This document shows, one piece after another, positions 4,456 to 16,998 of a stretch of DNA of 64,000 nt; position 1 is the stretch's first letter, and each line of letters opens with the position of its first letter. Source of the DNA: Candidatus Poribacteria bacterium (GTDB taxonomy: Bacteria > Poribacteria > WGA-4E > WGA-3G). A program made the position numbers and the translations under genes. The stretch is from the NCBI GenBank assembly GCA_009839745.1, contig VXPE01000110.1, positions 1 to 64,000 of the forward strand. Reading direction: 5' to 3'. The notes beneath the pieces were generated by a model. It worked only from the letters and a program-made list of their open reading frames with translations, was not told the DNA's origin and did not search any database.

Positions 4456-4641
4456 TTATCGGTTGTTGGAGTTGTGTTGACGGTTCTCACGTCGATCGCT
4501 CACTTCAATCAGTTTGTCAACCGTCTCCGAGTCCAGCACATTTCGGATGATGAGGTAGCCTTTATCGTCAAAGTGCTGTATGTCCTCATTGGAGAGTGGG
4601 TGCCAATCTAAATCGGTTAATGCTTCGCTTGTGTGTGCCAT
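4456..4641 (-). pseudogene. Truncated PhyH-family gene (N-terminal fragment)
   Basis: A 61-codon frame whose residues 17-47 (SNEDIQHFDDKGYLIIRNVL and following) match the N-terminal helix-strand opening of PhyH dioxygenases. It then ends in an Asn/Arg-rich stretch with none of the iron-binding region. A good SD (AGAGGAAA about 9 bp before ATG) shows it was once a real gene start. It points toward the intact PhyH gene and the REP-like hairpins at 4405-4440, so truncation probably accompanied a rearrangement there. Confidence 0.7.
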
Positions 4642-4666: not shown

Positions 4667-5236
4667 TCAGAATACGGGATCAATTAACTTATGAAAAAGG
4701 ACAGTAGGGCTCCGTGAGATTTTTAGAAAAATCTCGGGACGATTATGCAGTTGTCCCATGGATTGGAAAGGTTGTGTTCTACGCTTGCTCCTGTTAAAGT
4801 TAAGTTCTACAATACTAACAAACCGGTACTGATAACCATTAAGAAAGTCATCCGATGCCCAAAACGATTTTCCTATGCATTGGCAGTAAGTAATAAAGCA
4901 ATATGCCCCTTTTAATTGTTGGACAACGTGGGAAGCCAATTTAGCGTCCATTTCCTGCGTCTCGATGCAGATAATCCACTTTCTTCCACGCTCATCGTTG
5001 GATACAATCACAAAATCAGCCCGTTTGCGTTCGCCCTTCGTTCCATTGAAAACAGTAAGAGGATTCTCAAAATCTTCTGCCCTGATCACAATAGAGTGAG
5101 GAGGAATCCCTTTTATTTCGACAGTCGCACCGGATTGCAAATCGGTTAATTGCACAGAAGGTCTTCCCTGACCCGGTTGTAAGGTAACTTGGATATTGGG
5201 GGTGAGCATTTCCCTCAGTATCTGAATATCATTCAC
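4667..5236 (-). CDS. Unknown protein paired with an OLD-like ATPase; possible PD-(D/E)XK-like nuclease
   Basis: 189 aa, no family recognised with certainty. The middle has a two-strand pattern, RADFVIVSN (D74) then KWIICIETQ (E92, Q94). This spacing resembles the D...ExK core of PD-(D/E)XK nucleases, but with Gln instead of Lys, so this is only a suggestion. The start codon lies 5 bp after the stop of the upstream ATPase gene, showing translational coupling and a common function. Two-gene ATPase plus effector modules are typical of phage-defence islands, and the location beside a type III restriction system fits. It is the last gene of the minus-strand island. Confidence 0.6.
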   Translation of the reverse strand: MNDIQILREMLTPNIQVTLQPGQGRPSVQLTDLQSGATVEIKGIPPHSIVIRAEDFENPLTVFNGTKGERKRADFVIVSNDERGRKWIICIETQEMDAKLASHVVQQLKGAYCFITYCQCIGKSFWASDDFLNGYQYRFVSIVELNFNRSKRRTQPFQSMGQLHNRPEIFLKISRSPTVLFHKLIDPVF

Positions 5237-5241
5237 AAAGT

Positions 5242-6621
5242 CTACTCTTCCCCCCAGACAATTTCGTCCTGAATCCTGTTCATATCATCAATCGTCTTAT
5301 CAAAGCTGCTGACTCCAATGCCAAATCTTGGATGAATTTTAGCAGGAACGAGCGTATGCCCCCTTCTCCGTCTCTTTTGCCCTTCTTCCAATGGCATCAG
5401 TTTTTCTTCCGCTACGTATACTTTGACTTGATCGGCGTTAATCAATTCACTTTCCTGATAACCGTTTTCTTCGGCGACTCTTTTCAGGTGTGGCTTGTCG
5501 TGATTGAGCATGATCAGTGTGTTCAGTTCTTTGACGATGTAATCGCTGTGGGTAGTGATGAAGACTTTAACACCCAAATTCACGAGCCTCGCAAAGAGTC
5601 TGGCGATGCGGCGTTGATTTTCCGGATGGAGACTTAATTCGGGTTCGTCTATCATCAGCAGATCACCTTTTTCGGCAATACAATTGAGATAAAAGCTGAG
5701 GTCTAAGAGTGAACGCACGGCACTTGAACTTTCCACCATTGTTAATTTGAGTCGTGTGCCTTTCGGAATATAGTAGAGTTGGTCGTTTTGTGTAATGGTG
5801 TATTCGCCCCCGATAATATCTACAAAGTCTTCCAAAATTTCGGGATGCTCTTTGGCAATGAAACTTTTGCTTTTGGCAATATCTTCAAGTTGACCCATAA
5901 AGTCGACATCGGTTCCTATTGACGATGGGTAACTTTGATACGCCTTGGATAGCAATCCCCGCAAGTCCGTCTGTTGATCTGCTCGTGCCATGTCTTTCAG
6001 CAGTTGACTCCGAGCAAAATTAAGTTCTTTCCGAAAAGTCGAGATGCCGGTACGCTCAGCTGAAGATATAAAAGGTCTGGGTAAAGAACCAGAGAAAATA
6101 TGCTCGATAATAACAAAATCAATAAAACTTTTTACACTATCGGTATCAATTTTTTTTTCTTCTTGTTTTTTTGTTGTTCTTGAAGTAAGTATTGCTGCTT
6201 CGCTTCCCTTGCCCTTTGAAAATAGGAAAGATTGGAGGCCTGTGAATAGGCTGTTGAATTGTTTACCTTGTATGTCAATCTCATCTGTCATGAAGTAGAA
6301 TTCACTCTTCTGAAACGTCCCTTCAGGTGCCGCAAAAATTGTATCCAGTTGCTCGGTGTATTTCCTGCATGCTTCTGTAAGTAGGTCATCAGTTGCTGGC
6401 ACCAATTCAATCTTAACCTGTTTTGTAAGTGCTCGCTGGATTTGGGCATCGCTAATTGGGAAACGGATGAATTGATGCCAAGACTTTAAAAAACCGAACA
6501 ATACACAAGCAGCATAAGTTTTGCCGGTGTTATTCTCACCACAGATGAGTGTCAAATCGCCCAGCGAAAATTCTGCCTGCTTTAGGATTCCAATGTTTTT
6601 TAGTTTTACTGTCAGACTCAT
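5242..6621 (-). CDS. OLD-like AAA/ABC-type ATPase
   Basis: 459-aa ATPase of the AAA_15/AAA_21 (OLD-like) group. Walker A GENNTGKT is at 28-35, an ABC-signature-like ESSSAVRSLLDLSF at 297-310, Walker B LLMIDEPE at 321-328, and the switch His in FITTHSDYIV follows. No TOPRIM nuclease domain is seen at the C-terminus, which instead has a basic KRRRRGH patch. The nuclease activity may be supplied by the next gene (4667-5236). The ATG overlaps (ATGA) the stop codon of a leftover Mod C-terminal reading frame, implying that it once followed a mod gene directly. Likely a defence-type ATPase; the trigger is unknown. Confidence 0.8.
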   Translation of the reverse strand: MSLTVKLKNIGILKQAEFSLGDLTLICGENNTGKTYAACVLFGFLKSWHQFIRFPISDAQIQRALTKQVKIELVPATDDLLTEACRKYTEQLDTIFAAPEGTFQKSEFYFMTDEIDIQGKQFNSLFTGLQSFLFSKGKGSEAAILTSRTTKKQEEKKIDTDSVKSFIDFVIIEHIFSGSLPRPFISSAERTGISTFRKELNFARSQLLKDMARADQQTDLRGLLSKAYQSYPSSIGTDVDFMGQLEDIAKSKSFIAKEHPEILEDFVDIIGGEYTITQNDQLYYIPKGTRLKLTMVESSSAVRSLLDLSFYLNCIAEKGDLLMIDEPELSLHPENQRRIARLFARLVNLGVKVFITTHSDYIVKELNTLIMLNHDKPHLKRVAEENGYQESELINADQVKVYVAEEKLMPLEEGQKRRRRGHTLVPAKIHPRFGIGVSSFDKTIDDMNRIQDEIVWGEE

Positions 6622-6694
6622 ACTGATACCTCTACAATTGTCATAGGGTCATTACTCAAAGTGTTTACAGATTTAACAGTAAGTATGAGGGCAA
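6619..6694 (-). pseudogene. Remnant of a Mod C-terminus
   Basis: Read on the minus strand this stretch gives a tail ending ...LTVKSVNTLSNDPMTIVEVSV-stop. The intact Mod (7092-9254) ends ...LAVKVVDIFGNDTMTIVEVSV-stop. The last eight residues are identical, but the DNA differs at many third positions, so this is an old or separately acquired copy. The stop TGA overlaps the ATG of the ATPase gene. The remnant begins right at the end of the DUF4325 gene. Confidence 0.75.
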
Positions 6695-7048
6695 TTACAT
6701 TGAGAATTCATCAATTTGAAATATTTGATTGAATTTCTGGGGGTCTTTGAAATATAATTTGACATCGCGAACGACAGATTCCAGGAAAGCGAGGTCGTCT
6801 GGTTCTATATCTTCCACTTTCAATAGGGAGCGAATTTTTTCCTCACTGAATGTTCCGTACAATTCACCAACTGCAGCAGTGAGGAAAGGTGTTGTTAATG
6901 CTGTGACATTGTGAAATGAGAGGACGACATCTTGATTCGCTCTCAGAGCAGCATCAAGGTGTTTATGAATCTTCTGCCCGTCGCCGGAAGCAACGCAAAA
7001 CGGGCTGCCCACGACTTTAAACATGGATATTTTAATATTTTCTGACAC
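6695..7048 (-). CDS. STAS-like domain (DUF4325) protein
   Basis: 117 aa. The central strand-helix segment VVLSFHNVTALTTPFLTAAVG is typical of the STAS-like DUF4325 domain, a small alpha/beta fold usually found in regulators or beside ATPases. The start chosen is GTG at 7048, since AAGGAG (7054-7059) sits 5-6 bp upstream; an in-frame ATG at 7111 lies inside mod and lacks such a site. It stands between mod and the leftover Mod tail, so it appears to have been inserted there. Role in the island unknown; a sensor or partner-switch function would fit the family. Confidence 0.75.
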   Translation of the reverse strand: MSENIKISMFKVVGSPFCVASGDGQKIHKHLDAALRANQDVVLSFHNVTALTTPFLTAAVGELYGTFSEEKIRSLLKVEDIEPDDLAFLESVVRDVKLYFKDPQKFNQIFQIDEFSM

Positions 7049-7091
7049 GGTTATCTCCTTAAAAAGTATCTTCTGTGTTGAGGCGACAATC

Positions 7092-9254
7092 CTACACCGA
7101 AACCTCCACAATCGTCATTGTGTCATTGCCGAAGATGTCAACGACTTTGACGGCAAGTTTGCGATGACCAGGTTTGCATTCGTGGGCAACACTGGTCAAT
7201 TCCAATGATCGGTCTTTCTTGGTGCGGAAACTTTGCCACTCATTTTCAAAAACATAATCGCCTGTCCATTGTTCTTCCCATTCGCCTGTTTGCGAATCTT
7301 GCATGCGGATAATCTCGTGTTTGCTCTCAAAGTCGAAATCGACCGACCAGTAGTCGATCCAGTCTGTCCAGTGTTTGGTTAAAACCTCACGGCTCACAAT
7401 CCCATCCGCGTCTTTGCTTACTTTTACGACTTGCCCTCTTTCTACGACGATCCGACTACTCCTGTTCTTGAGTGTCTGCTCAGCGTTGGAGATAGAATCC
7501 TGTGAGTAAAAGACAGAGAAATCGGTTAATTCCACGGCGACCGTTGCAAGTCCCCCTGATAAGGGGGATTTAGGGGGTTTGGTCGAAGAACCTCCCTTGC
7601 CCTCCTTCTCAGGAGGGTAACAGATGGTGGGTTTGACCTCAATAAACGCCATGTCATGGAATACAACCTGACCTTGTTCCACCGCTCGTTTGTCGAAAAC
7701 CTCGGCGGGAATGAATTTCGGTGAAATGTCAAGTCCCTTGCTTTTCGCCTCATCTAACACATTGGGAAACAGCCCCATCTCGAACTCAAACCCGAGAACG
7801 TCCACACGCGTAATTTGGTGTCTACGGCACTCAAGGATAATTTCCTCCACAAAGAGGCGCGTCACCGGCATATTGACAGGACCGATTGCAACAAGCCGTC
7901 CGGCTTTTTTTCCCTGGAAATTGGTGAAACTCTCGGTCTTTTCGGCAGCGTAAGCACACAAAATGAGGTCAATGAACGCCTTTTCTCTCTCTACCGATTG
8001 CTTCTGCTGTTCAGCCTCGCGCAGGTTCGGATTAACACCGATATAGTGTTGACGCTCATATTTGCCGAGATTGAGGATTTCAAAGGCGCGGTAGTCTTTA
8101 CCATCAGTCTTAAGTTGACGCTGGGCTCCGATCATCCGTTTGCGTGTAGTGTGGATAGCGAACTTGCCGAGGTCTGTAGCAATCCACTTGCGTCCTAACT
8201 TTTCAGCAACGGCAGCAGTGGTGCCAGAGCCACAGAAGAAGTCAGCAACGAGGTCACCCTCATTGGAGGACGCTTTCATGATTCGTTCCGAAAGGGCCTC
8301 GGGCTTTTGAGTGGGATAGCCTATTCTTTCCTGTCCAACAGGATTTATCATCGAGATTTCCCACATATCCGGCATTGGAACACCTTTTGTAGGCTCATCT
8401 GTCATTATAGATCGCCTAATCCCATCTTCCCCAATAACACTTTTCCATGATTTTCCTTGCGCGCTGGATTTAGATGATTTCGGGATAAAAAGCTGGTTAA
8501 AACAATGTTTCCCTTTATTTTTTGCATAATAGAAAATATTATCGTGGTTAGCTGCAAACATTTTACCAGCAATATTCCATCTCCTGTAATACCAAGATAT
8601 TTGATTAATGAAATTCTCTCTCCCAAAAATCTCATCCATTGCAAGGCGGATATAACTATTCACGCGCCAATCACAATGCACATAGATACTCCCATCCTCT
8701 GCCAATAGCTCCCGCATTAGGACCAACCGCTCATGAATCATCGCGATAAAGGAGTCTGCTCCTTGTCCCCATGTGTCGCGGTAGGCAATCTCTTCAAGGA
8801 TATTTGGATTTTTGGTAAAAGTTTCGTCCCCAATTTCGATATCCATGGAAAAGTCCGCGCCTACATCAAAAGGAGGGTCAATATAGATGAGTTTGAGTCC
8901 ACCTTGTGCTTCAATTTCCTCGCGCAGCGGTCCGTTCTTGAGCGATGACAGAACAAGTTTGTTGTCACCCCAGATCAACTTGTTTGTCCAACCTTTGCGC
9001 TGTCGGCCACGTGTGTCAAAGAGCGCGAGTTGCATATTGTCTGGGGAAGGTTTCTCAGCACGGGGTTCATCTACCTGTTCAATCGTTTGAAAGGGTAGGA
9101 CAATGTTGCAGACCTCACTGGTTTTTCCGTTCCAGACGAGTTCGACTTCGCGTTTGTCTTCAAACAGCAGGAAGCGGTACTTGTCGGGCAGCGGTTTGTC
9201 TGCCTCAATAAAGCGGATGATTTCTTGTTGTTCTTGTTCTGTAAGTCGTGGCAT
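7092..9254 (-). CDS. mod: Type III restriction-modification methyltransferase subunit (Mod)
   Basis: 720-aa DNA methyltransferase of the beta class: catalytic motif IV DPPF (126-129) precedes the SAM-binding motif DFFCGSGTT (338-346), the order seen in type III Mod proteins. It would methylate adenine in the recognition site and supply recognition to Res (11865-14546). The N-terminal region with LIWGDNKLVL and the C-terminal region ending MTIVEVSV are Mod-like. Residues about 546-570 (containing KPPKSPLSGGL) are encoded by a palindromic repeat that is found widely as an intergenic repeat in bacteria, so this segment is an in-frame insertion. SD is weak (GAGAGA). Mod and Res are not adjacent as usual; three other genes lie between them. 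Confidence 0.92.
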   Translation of the reverse strand: MPRLTEQEQQEIIRFIEADKPLPDKYRFLLFEDKREVELVWNGKTSEVCNIVLPFQTIEQVDEPRAEKPSPDNMQLALFDTRGRQRKGWTNKLIWGDNKLVLSSLKNGPLREEIEAQGGLKLIYIDPPFDVGADFSMDIEIGDETFTKNPNILEEIAYRDTWGQGADSFIAMIHERLVLMRELLAEDGSIYVHCDWRVNSYIRLAMDEIFGRENFINQISWYYRRWNIAGKMFAANHDNIFYYAKNKGKHCFNQLFIPKSSKSSAQGKSWKSVIGEDGIRRSIMTDEPTKGVPMPDMWEISMINPVGQERIGYPTQKPEALSERIMKASSNEGDLVADFFCGSGTTAAVAEKLGRKWIATDLGKFAIHTTRKRMIGAQRQLKTDGKDYRAFEILNLGKYERQHYIGVNPNLREAEQQKQSVEREKAFIDLILCAYAAEKTESFTNFQGKKAGRLVAIGPVNMPVTRLFVEEIILECRRHQITRVDVLGFEFEMGLFPNVLDEAKSKGLDISPKFIPAEVFDKRAVEQGQVVFHDMAFIEVKPTICYPPEKEGKGGSSTKPPKSPLSGGLATVAVELTDFSVFYSQDSISNAEQTLKNRSSRIVVERGQVVKVSKDADGIVSREVLTKHWTDWIDYWSVDFDFESKHEIIRMQDSQTGEWEEQWTGDYVFENEWQSFRTKKDRSLELTSVAHECKPGHRKLAVKVVDIFGNDTMTIVEVSV
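7545..7618. repeat. Palindromic repeat inserted in frame within mod
   Basis: Contains TCCCCCTGATAAGGGGGA followed by TTTAGGGGG, and a second inverted repeat CCTCCTTCTCAGGAGG. It adds about 24 codons without breaking the mod frame. Confidence 0.7.
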
Positions 9255-9284: not shown

Positions 9285-9713
9285 TTAATCGTACGGACGA
9301 TCAACTTGAACGACGGGATCCCCGACCTTGACATAACTGTCTCCTTCATAAAGATGAGACCAACCTTTGTCTTTTGTTCTCAATGTTTCGTATTTTTTTA
9401 TCCATTCGGGGGGCATAAGCGATCGAGCAAATGGTCCCAAAGGTCCGCCCTCTCCGCCGATGTTTACTGACTCTGCTTTGTATGTACTAGCGATAGCTAA
9501 TTTATCTTGAACATGGGTGATCTTCACTCTGACTCTTGGACGTTCAATAGAACCCAACACTTCGTCTGTATCTGGATCTTTTATATCTTGCCCTTGAGGA
9601 TCCATCACATCAAAATACATACCAACATCTACGCCGTGTGCTGTTCCGATGTTTATTGCTATTTCCCGTTCGTTAAGCACCCGTGCGACTTTTCCACGGA
9701 TGGGTTCTGCCAT
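9285..9713 (-). CDS. Small FlgT-C-like beta-barrel protein
   Basis: 142 aa. The N-terminal half (GKVARVLNEREIAINIG, then GVDVGMYFDVMDP) follows the pattern of the FlgT C-terminal/OB-like barrel: a strand, an Asn-rich turn, Gly-Val-x-x-Gly and a Phe/Tyr-x-Val strand. The C-terminus has a second short motif, YVKVGDPVVQVD. No signal peptide, so it acts in the cytoplasm. It lies 12 bp after the HEPN gene and 30 bp before mod in the same operon. Function unknown; it may bind nucleic acid or be a structural partner of the ParA/HEPN pair. Confidence 0.65.
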   Translation of the reverse strand: MAEPIRGKVARVLNEREIAINIGTAHGVDVGMYFDVMDPQGQDIKDPDTDEVLGSIERPRVRVKITHVQDKLAIASTYKAESVNIGGEGGPLGPFARSLMPPEWIKKYETLRTKDKGWSHLYEGDSYVKVGDPVVQVDRPYD

Positions 9714-9725
9714 TTTTTATACCTC

Positions 9726-10328
9726 TTACCAAATGTTGGCAAGCCCGTAAGTTGACTCAATATGCGTTTTCATGCCCGTGTCCGTAACATTGACAAGGTT
9801 TTTGAAGAAAGTCTCAGTCTCTTGGATCGCTTTGCTGGTTAGACGGATTTTGCCACTCGGTGATTGTATCCAATTGTAAGTTGGCATGTTAGAACCATGA
9901 GCCAGACTATGGCGAATACGTAATATCTCATTTAATCGTTGATTTACCTGCTCCCGATTCATATTAACTTGAGACCCACCCCAATCGTTGATAGGATCGT
10001 ATCCTGTGTATTGATCGAGGAGATTGCGTGTATTTTCCCAGTTTGGCGTATTAAATCTTGTCAAAGCATTACCTGCTATATTCTTAGCGAGTGTATGTAT
10101 AGCATCAAATTTTGGGTTTAACGGATCTGCTATCACATCGTAGAAATTACGCACCAAGTTATCTATGTATGCATTCCACGCTGCGACGTAACCGGTAAGC
10201 GCTGCGTGATAGTAAACCTGTATTTCGTCAAGTGACATGGGGCGCAACCGCTTATTCGTTGCTGCTCTACGCAGTGTTTGTATACGATTTGCCGAGGCCG
10301 TGTACTTCAATGCTGCTGGTGATGGCAC
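9726..10328 (-). CDS. HEPN-domain protein (RiboL-PSP-HEPN type), possible RNase
   Basis: 200 aa, mostly helical, with the R-x4-H signature at R139-H144 (RHSLAH), the catalytic motif of HEPN ribonucleases. The helix with WNAYIDNLVRNFYD is typical of the RiboL-PSP-HEPN branch found in toxin and defence loci. The start is GTG at 10328, 9 bp after the ParA-like stop, with AAAGG upstream. Placed between a ParA-like ATPase and Mod of a type III system, it is a candidate toxic effector that cleaves RNA when the system is triggered; that role is inferred. Confidence 0.75.
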   Translation of the reverse strand: MPSPAALKYTASANRIQTLRRAATNKRLRPMSLDEIQVYYHAALTGYVAAWNAYIDNLVRNFYDVIADPLNPKFDAIHTLAKNIAGNALTRFNTPNWENTRNLLDQYTGYDPINDWGGSQVNMNREQVNQRLNEILRIRHSLAHGSNMPTYNWIQSPSGKIRLTSKAIQETETFFKNLVNVTDTGMKTHIESTYGLANIW

Positions 10329-10337
10329 GAGGAACCT

Positions 10338-11432
10338 TTAAAGATAATTTACAAATTCAGTAAGAGCATTCCGATACCGTTCTAACGGTTTGGGATTGAG
10401 TTGGACCGGTTTATCGTGAACCATATTCGGTCCGGGGCGAAGACTATCTAAGGGTATTCCTTTAACCGTCATAACGACACATGCACTGTGATAGTCTGGG
10501 ACCTCTATGAACCTTTTACTCGGTAAATCTTTTGGGGATGCATAAATTTGGCGATGTTTTTTGTGAAGTTCATCCAATGTTGCTTTAATGGCCTCATTTA
10601 CTGCCTCAAAAGCCCTGCTTGCCTTGCCACCATGGAGAGTTACGCGATTACTGATGAAGGTGTGGAGTTTCGGAACATCCAAACCCTCGTCCTTTGCTCT
10701 ATTAGCAAAGTTGATTCTCGCATAAGTTTCTATTTTAGGGTCACTCACACCGTATCCATAAAGCAGGGCAACAACATTCTCCACGGCCCGACGTGAACTA
10801 TCATCAGGTGTAAAAGGCACGACAAGGTTTTCAGTTGCAGCAAGTGCCAACTGAGTATAAATAGCGAAACTCGGATTACAGTCAATAATAAAAAGTGCAT
10901 CTCTGCTTCCGCTCCGCTTACGTAACGCGATTGTCAAATCTTTGATCCAATTGAGTACTTGTTTCCATGCATCTACCGGAATGGCAAGCTGGGAGGTCTG
11001 ACGAATCGCCTCTGAGAGGATTTCCAGCAGATAATCACCGCAAACCAAAAGTAAATTTGTTGGAAGTTTTGCGTTGAAGTTCCGAGGATGGCACACATAA
11101 GGAGAAACATCATGGATCTGCTTAAATGGAGAATTCAGTCGCGCTTCAAGGTAACCCGCAACTGTAGCACGCGGCGTTTTTCCTATTAGTTTGTGTATCG
11201 GATCAACATTTTCTCGGACTACATCGTAACTATATATTGACCTTTGGTCACCGGTATCAATCAAAAGTTGGGAATCCAAGAGCAACATCTCAGAGATGTT
11301 CGCCTGTGGACAAAGGTCTATCACATAGACATCGGCGTTCGGGTAAGTACGGGCATATTCTGTTGCGGCAACAAAGCTTAAGAAACTCTTGCCAATCCCT
11401 CCTTTGTTGTTCCAAAATGCGTAAGCTGTCAT
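10338..11432 (-). CDS. ParA-like P-loop ATPase
   Basis: 364 aa from ATG 11432; this start is preceded by AGAGGGGGTGG, whereas the longer frame begins inside that site. Deviant Walker A NKGGIGKS (residues 9-16, signature Lys10 and catalytic Lys15), Walker A' VIDLCPQANIS and Walker B-like FIIDCNPSF identify a ParA/MinD/Soj-type dimerising ATPase. No ParB or parS-like cluster is seen nearby, so chromosome or plasmid partition is unlikely. Co-transcription with HEPN and barrel genes inside a restriction island suggests a regulatory or sensor ATPase. A promoter with an 18-bp spacer lies at 11482-11511. Confidence 0.85.
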   Translation of the reverse strand: MTAYAFWNNKGGIGKSFLSFVAATEYARTYPNADVYVIDLCPQANISEMLLLDSQLLIDTGDQRSIYSYDVVRENVDPIHKLIGKTPRATVAGYLEARLNSPFKQIHDVSPYVCHPRNFNAKLPTNLLLVCGDYLLEILSEAIRQTSQLAIPVDAWKQVLNWIKDLTIALRKRSGSRDALFIIDCNPSFAIYTQLALAATENLVVPFTPDDSSRRAVENVVALLYGYGVSDPKIETYARINFANRAKDEGLDVPKLHTFISNRVTLHGGKASRAFEAVNEAIKATLDELHKKHRQIYASPKDLPSKRFIEVPDYHSACVVMTVKGIPLDSLRPGPNMVHDKPVQLNPKPLERYRNALTEFVNYL

Positions 11433-11481
11433 AGTGCCACCCCCTCTCAAAAATGAAAAAACTTGTGGAAAGATGTCTTAT

Positions 11482-11864: not shown

Positions 11865-14546
11865 CTACGAGGTTTTGTATTCCGTAAATCCGTCAAGCAG
11901 TTGCTGGAATGTTTCGGGTCTGTATACGTCAAAACTCTCTTGATCTACATAAACAAAGTCATAGATAGTATTTGACGAAACCTTGTTGACATCTTTACAC
12001 CATTGCGATAAGCGTTGCATCTTGCGCGGCACATCCAGATCTTCTCTCCCCTTCGTCTCAACAACGATTACGCGTCTATTCGTCAACTTAACAACAAAGT
12101 CTGGGTAGTAATTGGAAATATCGCCATCTGCATTGATATAGTCGAGTTTGAAATGCAGGCTAAAGTCGTTTTTGACGTAGGAGACGACATCTGGGCAGTT
12201 TTCGAGAAATGCGGCGAATTCCAATTCAAAATGACTGTCACCGGTGACTCTGTTGAACACAGACTTTTGGGGGACCAAGTATTCCTGTTCTTTAACCATG
12301 AAGGGACGTGCGTCCTGTGCTCGCGTTGTTTCGATCAACTTTGCATCTCCTCTATCCTGTATTGTGAGATCGTTGATAGCGTATTTGAACGTCTCCATGA
12401 CCGTTTTTGTGGCTGAGAGTTCTGACAGGTTCTGTAGGGTATCTGGGTGCTCTAACATCACCGTTTCGCCGAAAAGTTGGTTCTGGACAAAGTCTTTAAC
12501 CTTTCCATACAGCACATCGTAACCACTGATGAGTCGGAGGTCTTTACGGAGTGTCTCTGCAAAATAACCGATCACGCTGCGGTAATCAGCGACACCACTG
12601 CCGTCTAATACCGTGGTGTGCGTAACCTCGCCCGTCGCCATGTCCGTGAAAACGATTTCGCGTTCCGATGTTTCGTCAAACGCTTGGTATGCCACGGGTG
12701 TAAAACCGAACTGTGTGATATCCAAATCCGCGAGACTCGTGTACTCCCGATAGATGCGGCGCGTCAGTATCGGGACTTCAATATCAAGCGCGTCAATATC
12801 TTTGTTGACATTCGCTTTGTCCACTTCAATGACGAGGGGTGCTTTCGGTTTTGTCCCTACACCCATCGCTTGACGTTCCAATTCGACCCCTTCCGATTTA
12901 ATCTCCTCAACAAACTCCATGAAGGCATCAGTGCCAATAACACTCACAGTTTCTTCGAGACCACCCGAGTACATGAGGCGGAGCCCGCGTCCAAGCGTTT
13001 GTTCTGGTAAGATATTGGCTTTGGCGGAATAGGCGCGGAGTCCAACAATAGTCGTTACATTCTTGACATCCCATCCCTCCTTGAGCATCAACACGGAGAC
13101 AATCGCTTTGTATGGACTCTCCAGGGAATCAATCTCATTCGCCTGCTTACGGAGTTTCTCCAATTCTGCTTGTTTCTTACTGGATCTCGCCTCAGAGATT
13201 TCACCACTTCTGTTGGTATGAATGACGAGGACGGCATTTTTGAGAGCAGGATGCAGGTTTTCGAGGGACGCTGCCACTTCGTCGCAGTTCTGGGTATTGT
13301 CGGTCATCACAAATAGGATGGCTTTCTTCCCTAATTTTTCATGTTCTTCAGCTGCTTTTCGCCACTCCATAACACCGAGTTCGAGATAGTCGGCATACTT
13401 CTCGGTATACCTCACGCTTTGGCGTTCCTCAAGTTTTGCCCGGCTCTCAGCATCCGGAAGGACAGGGTGCTTAACAACATTTTGCGAAATCGCCTCTACA
13501 AGCGGATAATCTGCGACTGTTTGCACAAAAATTGCACCGTTGTCGTGCTTCGGCGTAGCACTTACATCCACTTGCAATGCCAATTCACTGCCTTTCTGCA
13601 AAAGACGATTGTGAATATCTTCAATGGACTTGAACCATGCTAACCTCCGATCGTGGACATGGTGTGCTTCATCGTTGAGGATCATCAGTTCGTCGATGTC
13701 GCGAACGATGTCTCCGAGATCAACCTTAGAATCTGTTGTTGCCCCTGTCGGCTTTTTACCGAAAAAGTAGTCCATGCTGTTATCATCATCAGGGGACGGT
13801 GGGGATTGATCGCTGGAATAGACGCGGTGGATGTTGGTGAGAAAGATGTTGCCTGTGGGTTGGGTAGTACGTACTTCGTCTTGGACGTGTAGGGTGAGTT
13901 GAAAATCGTCACGCCAGTTGTTACCTTCAAACCCGTTATCGGGCAGCACGGGATCATTAAAGAAAATGCGTAACCCCTGAAAATCGTGATAGAGTCGGTC
14001 AAGCACAATGATATTGGGGGCAATGACGAGGAAGTTGCGCGAGAGTTCGGAATCGGATTCATATAACTTGTGAAAGAAACTCCACGCGATGGCGAGGCTC
14101 ATCACTTTCGTTTTGCCTGTGCCTGTTGCCATTTTTATGACAAACCGCCGCCAGTTTTCGTCAAACAGTCCCGCTGAAACGGCGCGGGAACTGTCAAAGC
14201 GCATGAGATCGTATTCGTCCCTTACCTTGACAACATCGTATAGGTAGATGATGGTTTCGATTGCCTCGCGCTGGGCGAAGTAATACCGGAATTCTGTCCT
14301 CGTTTCATCATCCTGTTCGCTCAGGTGTTCGGTATTAAACCACCAATTGAGGAGTGCTTTGCTCGTTTCGGAGGCACCGCTGTAGTTGTTATCCCGCCAC
14401 GTTTTGACTTGTTCCCGGATCTTTTGCACAAGCGGGGGCAATAGCATCCCATATTCCTCAAACAACAGAGGCTGATCTGGAAGCCAACGCACTGCAGGGT
14501 CAATGATTGCGTGTGGAGATTCGGGAAAATCGGGGTGTAAAGCCAT
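11865..14546 (-). CDS. res: Type III restriction enzyme Res subunit
   Basis: 893-aa DNA translocase/endonuclease partner of Mod. The superfamily-2 helicase core is clear: Walker A ATGTGKT (140-146), a DEAH-like box ILNDEAHH (about 294-301), SATPK, and motif VI in LPEQTLGRGLRL. The C-terminal nuclease has a PD-(D/E)XK pattern, YYPDFVVK followed by VVETKG. All parts look intact, so Res should cut DNA when Mod finds unmethylated sites in the proper orientation. No strong SD before ATG 14546, but a consensus-like promoter is at 14602-14630. The gene is separated from mod by 2.6 kb. Confidence 0.93.
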   Translation of the reverse strand: MALHPDFPESPHAIIDPAVRWLPDQPLLFEEYGMLLPPLVQKIREQVKTWRDNNYSGASETSKALLNWWFNTEHLSEQDDETRTEFRYYFAQREAIETIIYLYDVVKVRDEYDLMRFDSSRAVSAGLFDENWRRFVIKMATGTGKTKVMSLAIAWSFFHKLYESDSELSRNFLVIAPNIIVLDRLYHDFQGLRIFFNDPVLPDNGFEGNNWRDDFQLTLHVQDEVRTTQPTGNIFLTNIHRVYSSDQSPPSPDDDNSMDYFFGKKPTGATTDSKVDLGDIVRDIDELMILNDEAHHVHDRRLAWFKSIEDIHNRLLQKGSELALQVDVSATPKHDNGAIFVQTVADYPLVEAISQNVVKHPVLPDAESRAKLEERQSVRYTEKYADYLELGVMEWRKAAEEHEKLGKKAILFVMTDNTQNCDEVAASLENLHPALKNAVLVIHTNRSGEISEARSSKKQAELEKLRKQANEIDSLESPYKAIVSVLMLKEGWDVKNVTTIVGLRAYSAKANILPEQTLGRGLRLMYSGGLEETVSVIGTDAFMEFVEEIKSEGVELERQAMGVGTKPKAPLVIEVDKANVNKDIDALDIEVPILTRRIYREYTSLADLDITQFGFTPVAYQAFDETSEREIVFTDMATGEVTHTTVLDGSGVADYRSVIGYFAETLRKDLRLISGYDVLYGKVKDFVQNQLFGETVMLEHPDTLQNLSELSATKTVMETFKYAINDLTIQDRGDAKLIETTRAQDARPFMVKEQEYLVPQKSVFNRVTGDSHFELEFAAFLENCPDVVSYVKNDFSLHFKLDYINADGDISNYYPDFVVKLTNRRVIVVETKGREDLDVPRKMQRLSQWCKDVNKVSSNTIYDFVYVDQESFDVYRPETFQQLLDGFTEYKTS

Positions 14547-14934: not shown

Positions 14935-16998
14935 TTATTGTAAGAGTTCTATGAATGCATCAACATCCGTTGTGGGGGCTTGGCAGACGTAATTCTCGCA
15001 GACGTAGGCGGTTGCGGTGTCGTCAACTTGGGTCTTGCCAGCGAGGAGCGGTAACGTCTGTCCGTCAGTGGATTCGCTCAAGGCGACGATTTTGTTGGGC
15101 AGATACGTGCCGTGCAATGCTTCTAACATCGCCTCCGTTTTTGCATTCCCTTTTTCACCAACAATCGCAATCTCTTTGGGTGTCGATAGCAGGAATGCTA
15201 ATTCACAGAGCAGCTGCCCGGATCCTGAAGGCATCGCCTCCATTTGCTGGAAGTAGAGCAACAACGTCTCAACGGCTTTGTCGTGGAATTCAGAATTGTC
15301 AAGGTGTTTGGCGAGCCGTAGGAGACTGTGAATCGCCATGGATGCCCCGGAAGGTGTGGCACCGTCGTAAGCGGACTTGGATTGGACGATCAGCGTCTCG
15401 TGTGCTTTGCCAGTGAAGAAGAACCCGTCGCCTGCGTCGTCCCCGAACTGATCGATCATGATGTGTGCGAGGCGTTCGGCTTCAGTGAGCCACCGCGGTT
15501 CAAAACTGGCTTCGTAGAGCGCGATTAACCCAGCGATGAAGTAGGCGTAGTCCTCAAGATAGGCGTTGAGGTGGCTTTTACCGGCACGATAGGTGCGCAA
15601 GAGGAGTCCGTCCTCTTGTGATAGGGTCGTCAAGACGAATTCAGCGGATTTTTCACACGCCTCAAGGTATTCAGGTTTCCCGGTCAGTTGGTATCCCATC
15701 GCCATACCGCGAATCATGATTCCGTTCCAACTGGTGAGGATTTTGTCGTCCAATCCGGGTTTAATTCGCTTCTCTCGTTCATCAAACAACTTCTGCTTTC
15801 CATCTGCGAGAAGCGTTTCCAGTTCCTCGCCATCCAGACGCAGCTTCCGAGCAAAGACATCAGGTGGCGTCTGGACGTGGAGGATGTTTTCTCCCTCAAA
15901 GTTGCCTTGTGGTGTGATGTCGTAATACTCACAGAAGATCTGGGCATTCTCTTCACCAACGACATCTTCCACATCGTTCGGCTCCCAGACGAAGAATTTG
16001 CCCTCTACCCCTTCACTATCGGCATCTTGGGTGGAATAGAAACCGCCGTTTTCTGCGTCGTACATCTCACGGAGAACGTAATCGAGGGTTTCCGTGGCTA
16101 CATCACGATAGAACGGTTTCTGCGTGGCTTGATACGCCTCAAAATAGGCGACAACGAGTTGTGCGTTGTCATATAACATCTTCTCAAAATGTGGGACAAG
16201 CCAGTGAGCATCGGTGGAATATCGGTGAAAACCGCCACCGAGTTGGTCATACATACCCCCGCGCGCCATCTTCTCCAGTGTAAGCTCGACCATCTCTAAG
16301 GCGTTGGCGTTGCCGCTGTGGTGCCAATAGCGCAGGAGGAAAGGCAATCCCATGCTGGGTGGGAATTTGGGAGGGTCGCCGAATCCACCGTGGTGTGCAT
16401 CGAATCGCGAGTGGTAGTGCTGAAACGCCTGGGTCATCAACTCTTCCGTGAGTTCATAATGGTGCGGGTCAACGACGTTACTCATCTGGGCAAGGTGGTC
16501 AGTAATTTGGTCGGCTTGCTGTAGGACCTGCACATTTTGATCCCTGAACGCCTCAGCAACAGCATGCATCACCTTCGGGAACCCGGGTCTACCGTATCCG
16601 TCGGTCGGCGGGTAATAGGTTCCGCCGAAGAAGGGTTTCAGGTCAGGCGTGAGGAAGACCGTCATGGGCCAGCCCCCTTGACGGGCCATGATCTGGACGG
16701 CGTTCATGTAGATTTCATCTAAATCGGGACGCTCTTCTCTATCGACCTTGATGTTGATGAAAAGCTCGTTCATGACCGCGGCGATCTCTTCATTTTCAAA
16801 GGATTCGCGTTCCATGACGTGGCACCAGTGGCACGCGGAGTAGCCGATACTCAGAAGGATAGGCTTCTGGTCATCTTTGGCGCGCGTCAATGCTTCTTCG
16901 CCCCAGGGATACCAGTCAACGGGATTATGGGCATGCTGGAGCAGATAGGGGCTTGTTTCATGGATAAGGCGGTTGGTGTGTTCGGGTGTACCGTGCAT
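14935..16998 (-). CDS. YyaL-type thioredoxin-domain protein (DUF255)
   Basis: 687-aa homologue of the YyaL/SPATA20 family: an N-terminal thioredoxin-like DUF255 domain followed by an (alpha/alpha)6 glycosidase-like domain. The family signature [14 protein letters not shown] (24-37), the CHWC redox-type motif at C56-C59 and the [11 protein letters not shown] segment are present, as are [12 protein letters not shown] and [25 protein letters not shown] precedes the ATG. The cellular role of the family is not settled; a redox or sugar-modifying function has been proposed from structure. No obvious operon partner. Confidence 0.9.

Follow-up and report, generated by a model that had tools for sequence, protein, structure and literature searches.

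How did the last codons of a methyltransferase gene come to lie, cut off from the rest of that gene, directly in front of an ATPase gene? The question is raised by a window of 64,000 nucleotides of Candidatus Poribacteria DNA (contig VXPE01000110.1, positions 1 to 64,000), which holds a predicted type III restriction-modification (R-M) locus, both Mod and Res being found by profile. The intact Mod (7092–9254, minus strand; MTase_III, N6_N4_Mtase), which ends in NDTMTIVEVSV, matches PF01555 with 147 bits and PADLOC MTase_III with E = 1.3e-113, while the Res subunit (11865–14546, minus) matches PF04851 with 65.5 bits and PADLOC REase_III, and scores 21.6 bits against PF19778, slightly below the cut-off of 23.4. 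Between res and mod lie FlgT_C-like, HEPN (RiboL-PSP) and ParA-like genes (9285–11450, minus), which are retained in several sister loci, and beyond res stands a yyaL-like (DUF255) gene (14935–16998, minus), the fixed chromosomal flank. After mod come a DUF4325 (STAS-like) gene with a GTG start (6695–7048, minus; PF14213, 54.1 bits), an OLD-type ABC ATPase gene (5242–6621, minus; 609.5 bits for PDC-M47A in a match over 456 residues, 484.7 bits for PD-T4-4_A) and a partner gene (4667–5236, minus; PDC-M47B, 187.1 bits), which adjoins the ATPase in nearly all related loci. The partner is itself adjoined by a small fragment of a phytanoyl-CoA dioxygenase-like gene (4456–4641, minus), which occurs in many sister loci (designated here by L numbers) and in two copies in L065 and L073.

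In front of the ATPase, the minus strand carries a 29-codon open frame without a convincing start codon (6618–6707), ILNVIALILTVKSVNTLSNDPMTIVEVSV, with its codons at 6707–6621 and its stop at 6620–6618. It ends in NDPMTIVEVSV, against NDTMTIVEVSV* in the intact Mod, the final eight residues being the same, and its stop overlaps the ATPase start codon (6621–6619) as ATGA (6618–6621). Across the six reading frames of the 64 kb, the octapeptide MTIVEVSV is confined to two places, this tail and Mod, and five of its eight codons differ synonymously between the two; over the final 21 residues, tail and Mod agree at 14 positions, as against 8 of 21 for the runner-up 21-mer in the window, and the part that can be aligned without gaps to the last 22 Mod codons (6621–6686, minus) is identical at 45 of 66 nucleotides. 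A nucleotide profile built from 29 Mod 3′ ends, with ATPase-adjacent Mods left out, matches 71 nt at the tail, exactly in register with the start of the ATPase (E = 4.3e-9, 28.7 bits), and the best score of shuffled leaders is 4.3 bits. A chance match is ruled out by this uniqueness in 64 kb, by the profile E-value of 4e-9 and by the negative shuffles. The sequence-only reading, which had described a minus-strand tail ending like Mod, with many synonymous changes and with its stop over the ATPase ATG, is borne out on these three points, and needs correction in the span that it gave (6619–6694), as the open frame reaches 6707, with TGATGA as its upstream limit. When the final 24 nt are removed, the window tail scores just 4.8 bits (E 0.14), close to the best shuffle, whereas the upstream part scores 26.0 bits in L034, 15.9 in L174 and 14.6 in L075; the similarity beyond the last 24 nt thus appears marginal in the window alone and secure only through the sister loci.

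The search with the ATPase gave 80 loci in GTDB genomes, with orthologues in many of the 85 genomes of the phylum, and the close relatives all belong to Candidatus Poribacteria. The tail precedes nearly all of the 37 distinct Poribacteria orthologues, where the gene upstream may be PIN, DUF4325 or yyaL, and ahead of most of them the Mod-tail profile matches in register, the shuffles again being negative. The claim that the ATPase pair once followed a mod gene directly is supported by L064 (OY282383.1), in which the orthologous ATPase starts within the stop of an intact mod of 694 aa (ATGA) and DUF4325 is lacking, the very arrangement that had been named beforehand as confirming the ancestral order, and also by L072 (= L168), in which an internally deleted mod, with Mod residues 1–84 and 683–720 left, precedes the ATPase by the same overlap. 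The gene order of L064 is flgT-mod, flgT-mod, ATPase, the second mod being the intact one that overlaps the ATPase. Farther afield, the ATPase of a Caldilineaceae locus (L093) is preceded by the opening 51 residues of Mod (82% over this length) and a tail-like MTIAEV, two Latescibacterota loci (L083, L113) show VVEVSV or MVEVSV-like leaders with ATGA ahead of it, and longer mod remnants persist in L034 (~100 nt) and L058. Direct mod-ATPase junctions are few (L064 and L168, plus the remnants), which counts against the history of the tail proposed below. The orders mod-ATPase-M47B-res in Methylobacter (L096) and mod-DUF4325-ATPase-M47B-res in Nitrosomonas (L101) indicate that in this R-M family the ATPase pair can be placed between mod and res, and the latter also that the succession of mod and DUF4325 is itself old, a further point against that history.

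The direction of descent follows from the Mods themselves, since the ending KVVDIFGNDTM.IVEV.V is found in most Poribacteria Mods and also in Mods of other genomes that do not have this ATPase alongside, so that the tail derives from Mod and not the reverse. Nor does the leader belong intrinsically to the 5′ region of the ATPase gene, as distant orthologues, the cyanobacterial ones and most of the others, do not have it. A general leader placed before unrelated genes, which would have told against the sequence-only reading, was not found among the Poribacteria leaders examined, in which the gene upstream of the relic varies and the one downstream is this ATPase. In the ATPase tree, a supported clade of 11 rows holds both the window and L168, and L064 branches at another place among the Poribacteria; several forks of the tree are open, and it therefore gives no order for insertion versus loss.

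The alleles with and without R-M genes occupy the same chromosomal site, flanked by yyaL on one side and by phytanoyl-CoA dioxygenase-like and mandelate racemase-like genes on the other. In most of the R-M-less alleles the ATPase still bears the Mod tail and yyaL is the next gene upstream, and some of the joins to yyaL have a short stretch in common with mod, for example TACAATGACA. Five R-M-less alleles (L067, L074, L078, L080, L178), in which the tail is joined a few nucleotides from the yyaL stop, would suit a mobile cassette, in which part of mod travelled with the ATPase pair to serve it as ribosome-binding site, the R-M genes being added at yyaL later. This history seems rather unlikely, given that alleles with R-M and alleles lacking it share their flanks, that L034 and L058 hold longer mod remnants and some joins the short mod stretch, and that an earlier mod-ATPase junction would be required all the same. 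On the same grounds of shared flanks, remnants and mod stretches at the joins, loss of the R-M genes is simpler than their later addition, and deletion of the R-M block is the simplest reading of how the R-M-less alleles may have arisen.

The persistence of the tail may be explained by what its codons offer to the ribosome. Intact mods are variable at the third codon position and fixed at the first two; in the 35 decayed leaders this two-of-three pattern is lost, and conservation peaks from −11 to −7, at GAGGT (6628–6632 of the window, minus), the putative Shine-Dalgarno core of the ATPase, which stems from codons that spelled Glu-Val in the tail of the former Mod and lies 6 nt ahead of the ATPase ATG. 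A G stands at −9 in 35 of 35 decayed leaders, though this is a third codon position, and the predicted pairing with the anti-Shine-Dalgarno sequence averages −6.9 kcal/mol in the leaders versus −1.5 in nearby control stretches, being weak in a few leaders (L172, L050, L176). Given the lost codon periodicity, the retained GAGGT and this pairing, the constraint has moved from the protein to the ribosome-binding site, and the 3′ end of a lost mod has probably been retained as the ribosome-binding site of the ATPase. The eight residues shared with Mod, the frame that ends in the ATGA overlap, and a DUF4325 frame that seems to read into the tail in L068, L069 and L073 would also accord with a functional leader peptide, an upstream ORF kept for its residues MTIVEVSV and coupling or regulating ATPase translation. 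Such a peptide is nevertheless improbable, as the residues are not kept (L085 has a stop codon inside the tail peptide and retains GAGGT, and L169, L178, L062 and L065 differ), the constraint on codon positions is gone while GAGGT stays, and the window shows no evident start site of its own for the peptide.

The genes that separate mod from the ATPase form a module, of which the window keeps one member. A PIN gene lies between DUF4325 and the ATPase in L059, L065, L070, L071, L075, L077 and L174 (PF01850, 41.5 bits for L075; the L077 copy is interrupted by Ns), and a HATPase-like gene of ~290 aa lies between mod and DUF4325 in L065, L070 and L077, with its 3′ part in L174; the label HATPase-like was given by eye, and the copy at L179:3948-4820 has no Pfam match above cut-off. 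Further coordinates of the module are L065:4376-4990 and L174:4563-6034. The PADLOC scan gave no match for the PIN protein of L075, the HATPase-like protein of L179 or the DUF4325 proteins scanned. In the window DUF4325 is present, PIN is deleted and HATPase is absent: DUF4325 continues, out of frame, into sequence that in the sisters forms the spacer behind PIN, with the junction at ~6715–6718, just upstream of a TGATGA (6708–6713, minus) which, by alignment with the post-PIN spacer of L075 and L071, represents the stop codons with which PIN once ended. It is this alignment of the spacer that shows PIN to have been lost, DUF4325 now ending in IDEFSM, with its stop 73 nt before the ATPase. The proposal that the DUF4325 gene, or a block of mod plus DUF4325, had been inserted later is supported as regards an insertion between mod and ATPase, and fails as regards DUF4325 by itself, since the sisters show HATPase-DUF4325-PIN. 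The spacer, if accepted as shared, also disposes of a recent copying of the 3′ end of the intact Mod, which the agreement of the final eight residues within one window might suggest and which is very improbable, as five of the eight codons differ and as tail and preceding spacer are orthologous to the post-PIN spacer of L075 and the leaders of L059 and L060, making the tail older than the window's arrangement.

The tail is thus best explained, with a high degree of confidence, as the 3′ end of an older mod that may have been kept as the Shine-Dalgarno site of the ATPase after the loss of that mod and the arrival of the module. The older mod would once have run directly into the ATPase gene through a stop-start overlap, and a second mod allele would then have come in upstream with the HATPase-DUF4325-PIN module, probably by homologous recombination in conserved parts of mod. 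This step would give tandem mods, still visible in L064 (L064:2634-8001), whose two copies are 95–100% identical except at residues ~181–360, where identity drops to 30%; the divergent stretch is bracketed by the motifs DPPF (residue 126) and FFCGSG (residue 339), where this class has its target-recognition region. A crossover within conserved mod sequence is proposed because it would leave tandem mods of differing specificity, as in L064, whose pair is likely an intermediate in mod displacement, and given this pair, arrival of the module together with a new mod copy is favoured over arrival of the module alone. The older copy would then have decayed save for the part that the ATPase needs, with GAG-GTN, once Glu-Val of Mod, kept as the Shine-Dalgarno site and the peptide freed from constraint. 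In the window a later deletion has taken out PIN, leaving DUF4325 an orphan.

The window tail does not represent a new system but a relic, and the parts of the locus can be set beside known systems. As in type III R-M systems (PADLOC MTase_III and REase_III), the DPPF and FFCGSG motifs of Mod flank a hypervariable target-recognition region and Res has a ResIII helicase and an RE_endonuc-like domain; unlike them, ParA-like, HEPN and FlgT-like genes split res from mod, and changing defence genes come after mod. The ATPase and its partner correspond by profile to PDC-M47A/PD-T4-4_A and PDC-M47B, and WonAB and PD-T4-4 have been described as pairs of an ABC ATPase and a nuclease (PMC12137116); the pair studied here differs in being apparently translated from a mod-derived putative Shine-Dalgarno site. 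The mod stop overlaps the ATPase start in L064 and L168, with GAGGT inside the last mod codons, and stop-start (ATGA) overlaps are associated with translational coupling; in contrast, most Poribacteria have lost the upstream gene and are left with the end that bears the Shine-Dalgarno site. Accessory nuclease genes embedded in R-M loci are known, such as PrrC in type I hsd loci, and here too a second defence module is tied to an R-M operon, although the system is type III, the cargo stands at the mod stop and several unrelated cargo families share the slot. Searches of the literature on DUF4325, and on genes lying at the mod stop in type III R-M loci, brought up no paper that treats either subject directly. 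The trail of rearrangements can be followed with unusual completeness, and the deduction drawn from a tiny tail proved correct; its ordered steps would show a type III R-M locus exchanging its methyltransferase allele and neighbouring defence genes, and would offer a clear example of codons that became a ribosome-binding site once the protein they encoded was lost. A search for such tails could reconstruct former neighbours in other defence islands.

The 3′ end of mod may also have a wider role. The next gene starts exactly at the −1 overlap in 16 of 29 Poribacteria Mod 3′ ends and in 8 of 33 elsewhere, and the genes docked there are unrelated (PDC-M47A ATPase, AAA ATPases best matching AriAB, HATPase-like, DUF4325, and GajA, the last with 672 bits in Desulfatirhabdium). 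GAG is the codon used for Glu in 18/18 docked versus 10/14 undocked Mods (Fisher p 0.028, with relatedness ignored). It may tentatively be proposed that the mod 3′ end is a general docking slot, in which the VEV codons supply GAGGT and unrelated anti-phage genes (PD-T4-4-like, AriAB/PARIS-like ATPases, Gabija GajA, HATPase-DUF4325-PIN) plug in, to be made only when Mod is fully translated; four-base gene overlaps are common in bacteria generally, and a special docking role is for this reason put forward only as a possibility. The docked genes could possibly act as guards of the R-M system and, if the slot exists, orphaned mod tails would be scars of the exchange of cargo and alleles.

Finally, some minor observations concern mod ends in other arrangements. 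Defence-type genes start at the mod stop through an xTGA overlap in L069, L073, L179, L181, L100 and L101. In another family (L076:8001-17195 and L079), the order is tail-ATPase-M47B-res-parA-(flgT or hepn)-mod, a Mod-like tail still standing ahead of the ATPase though mod is at the far end. An orphan Mod C-terminus of ~43 residues, followed by the apparent start of an AAA cargo gene, lies at L171:403-531, in a genome with an intact mod ~3 kb away, and makes a second scar, one that has no connection with the PDC-M47 ATPase.
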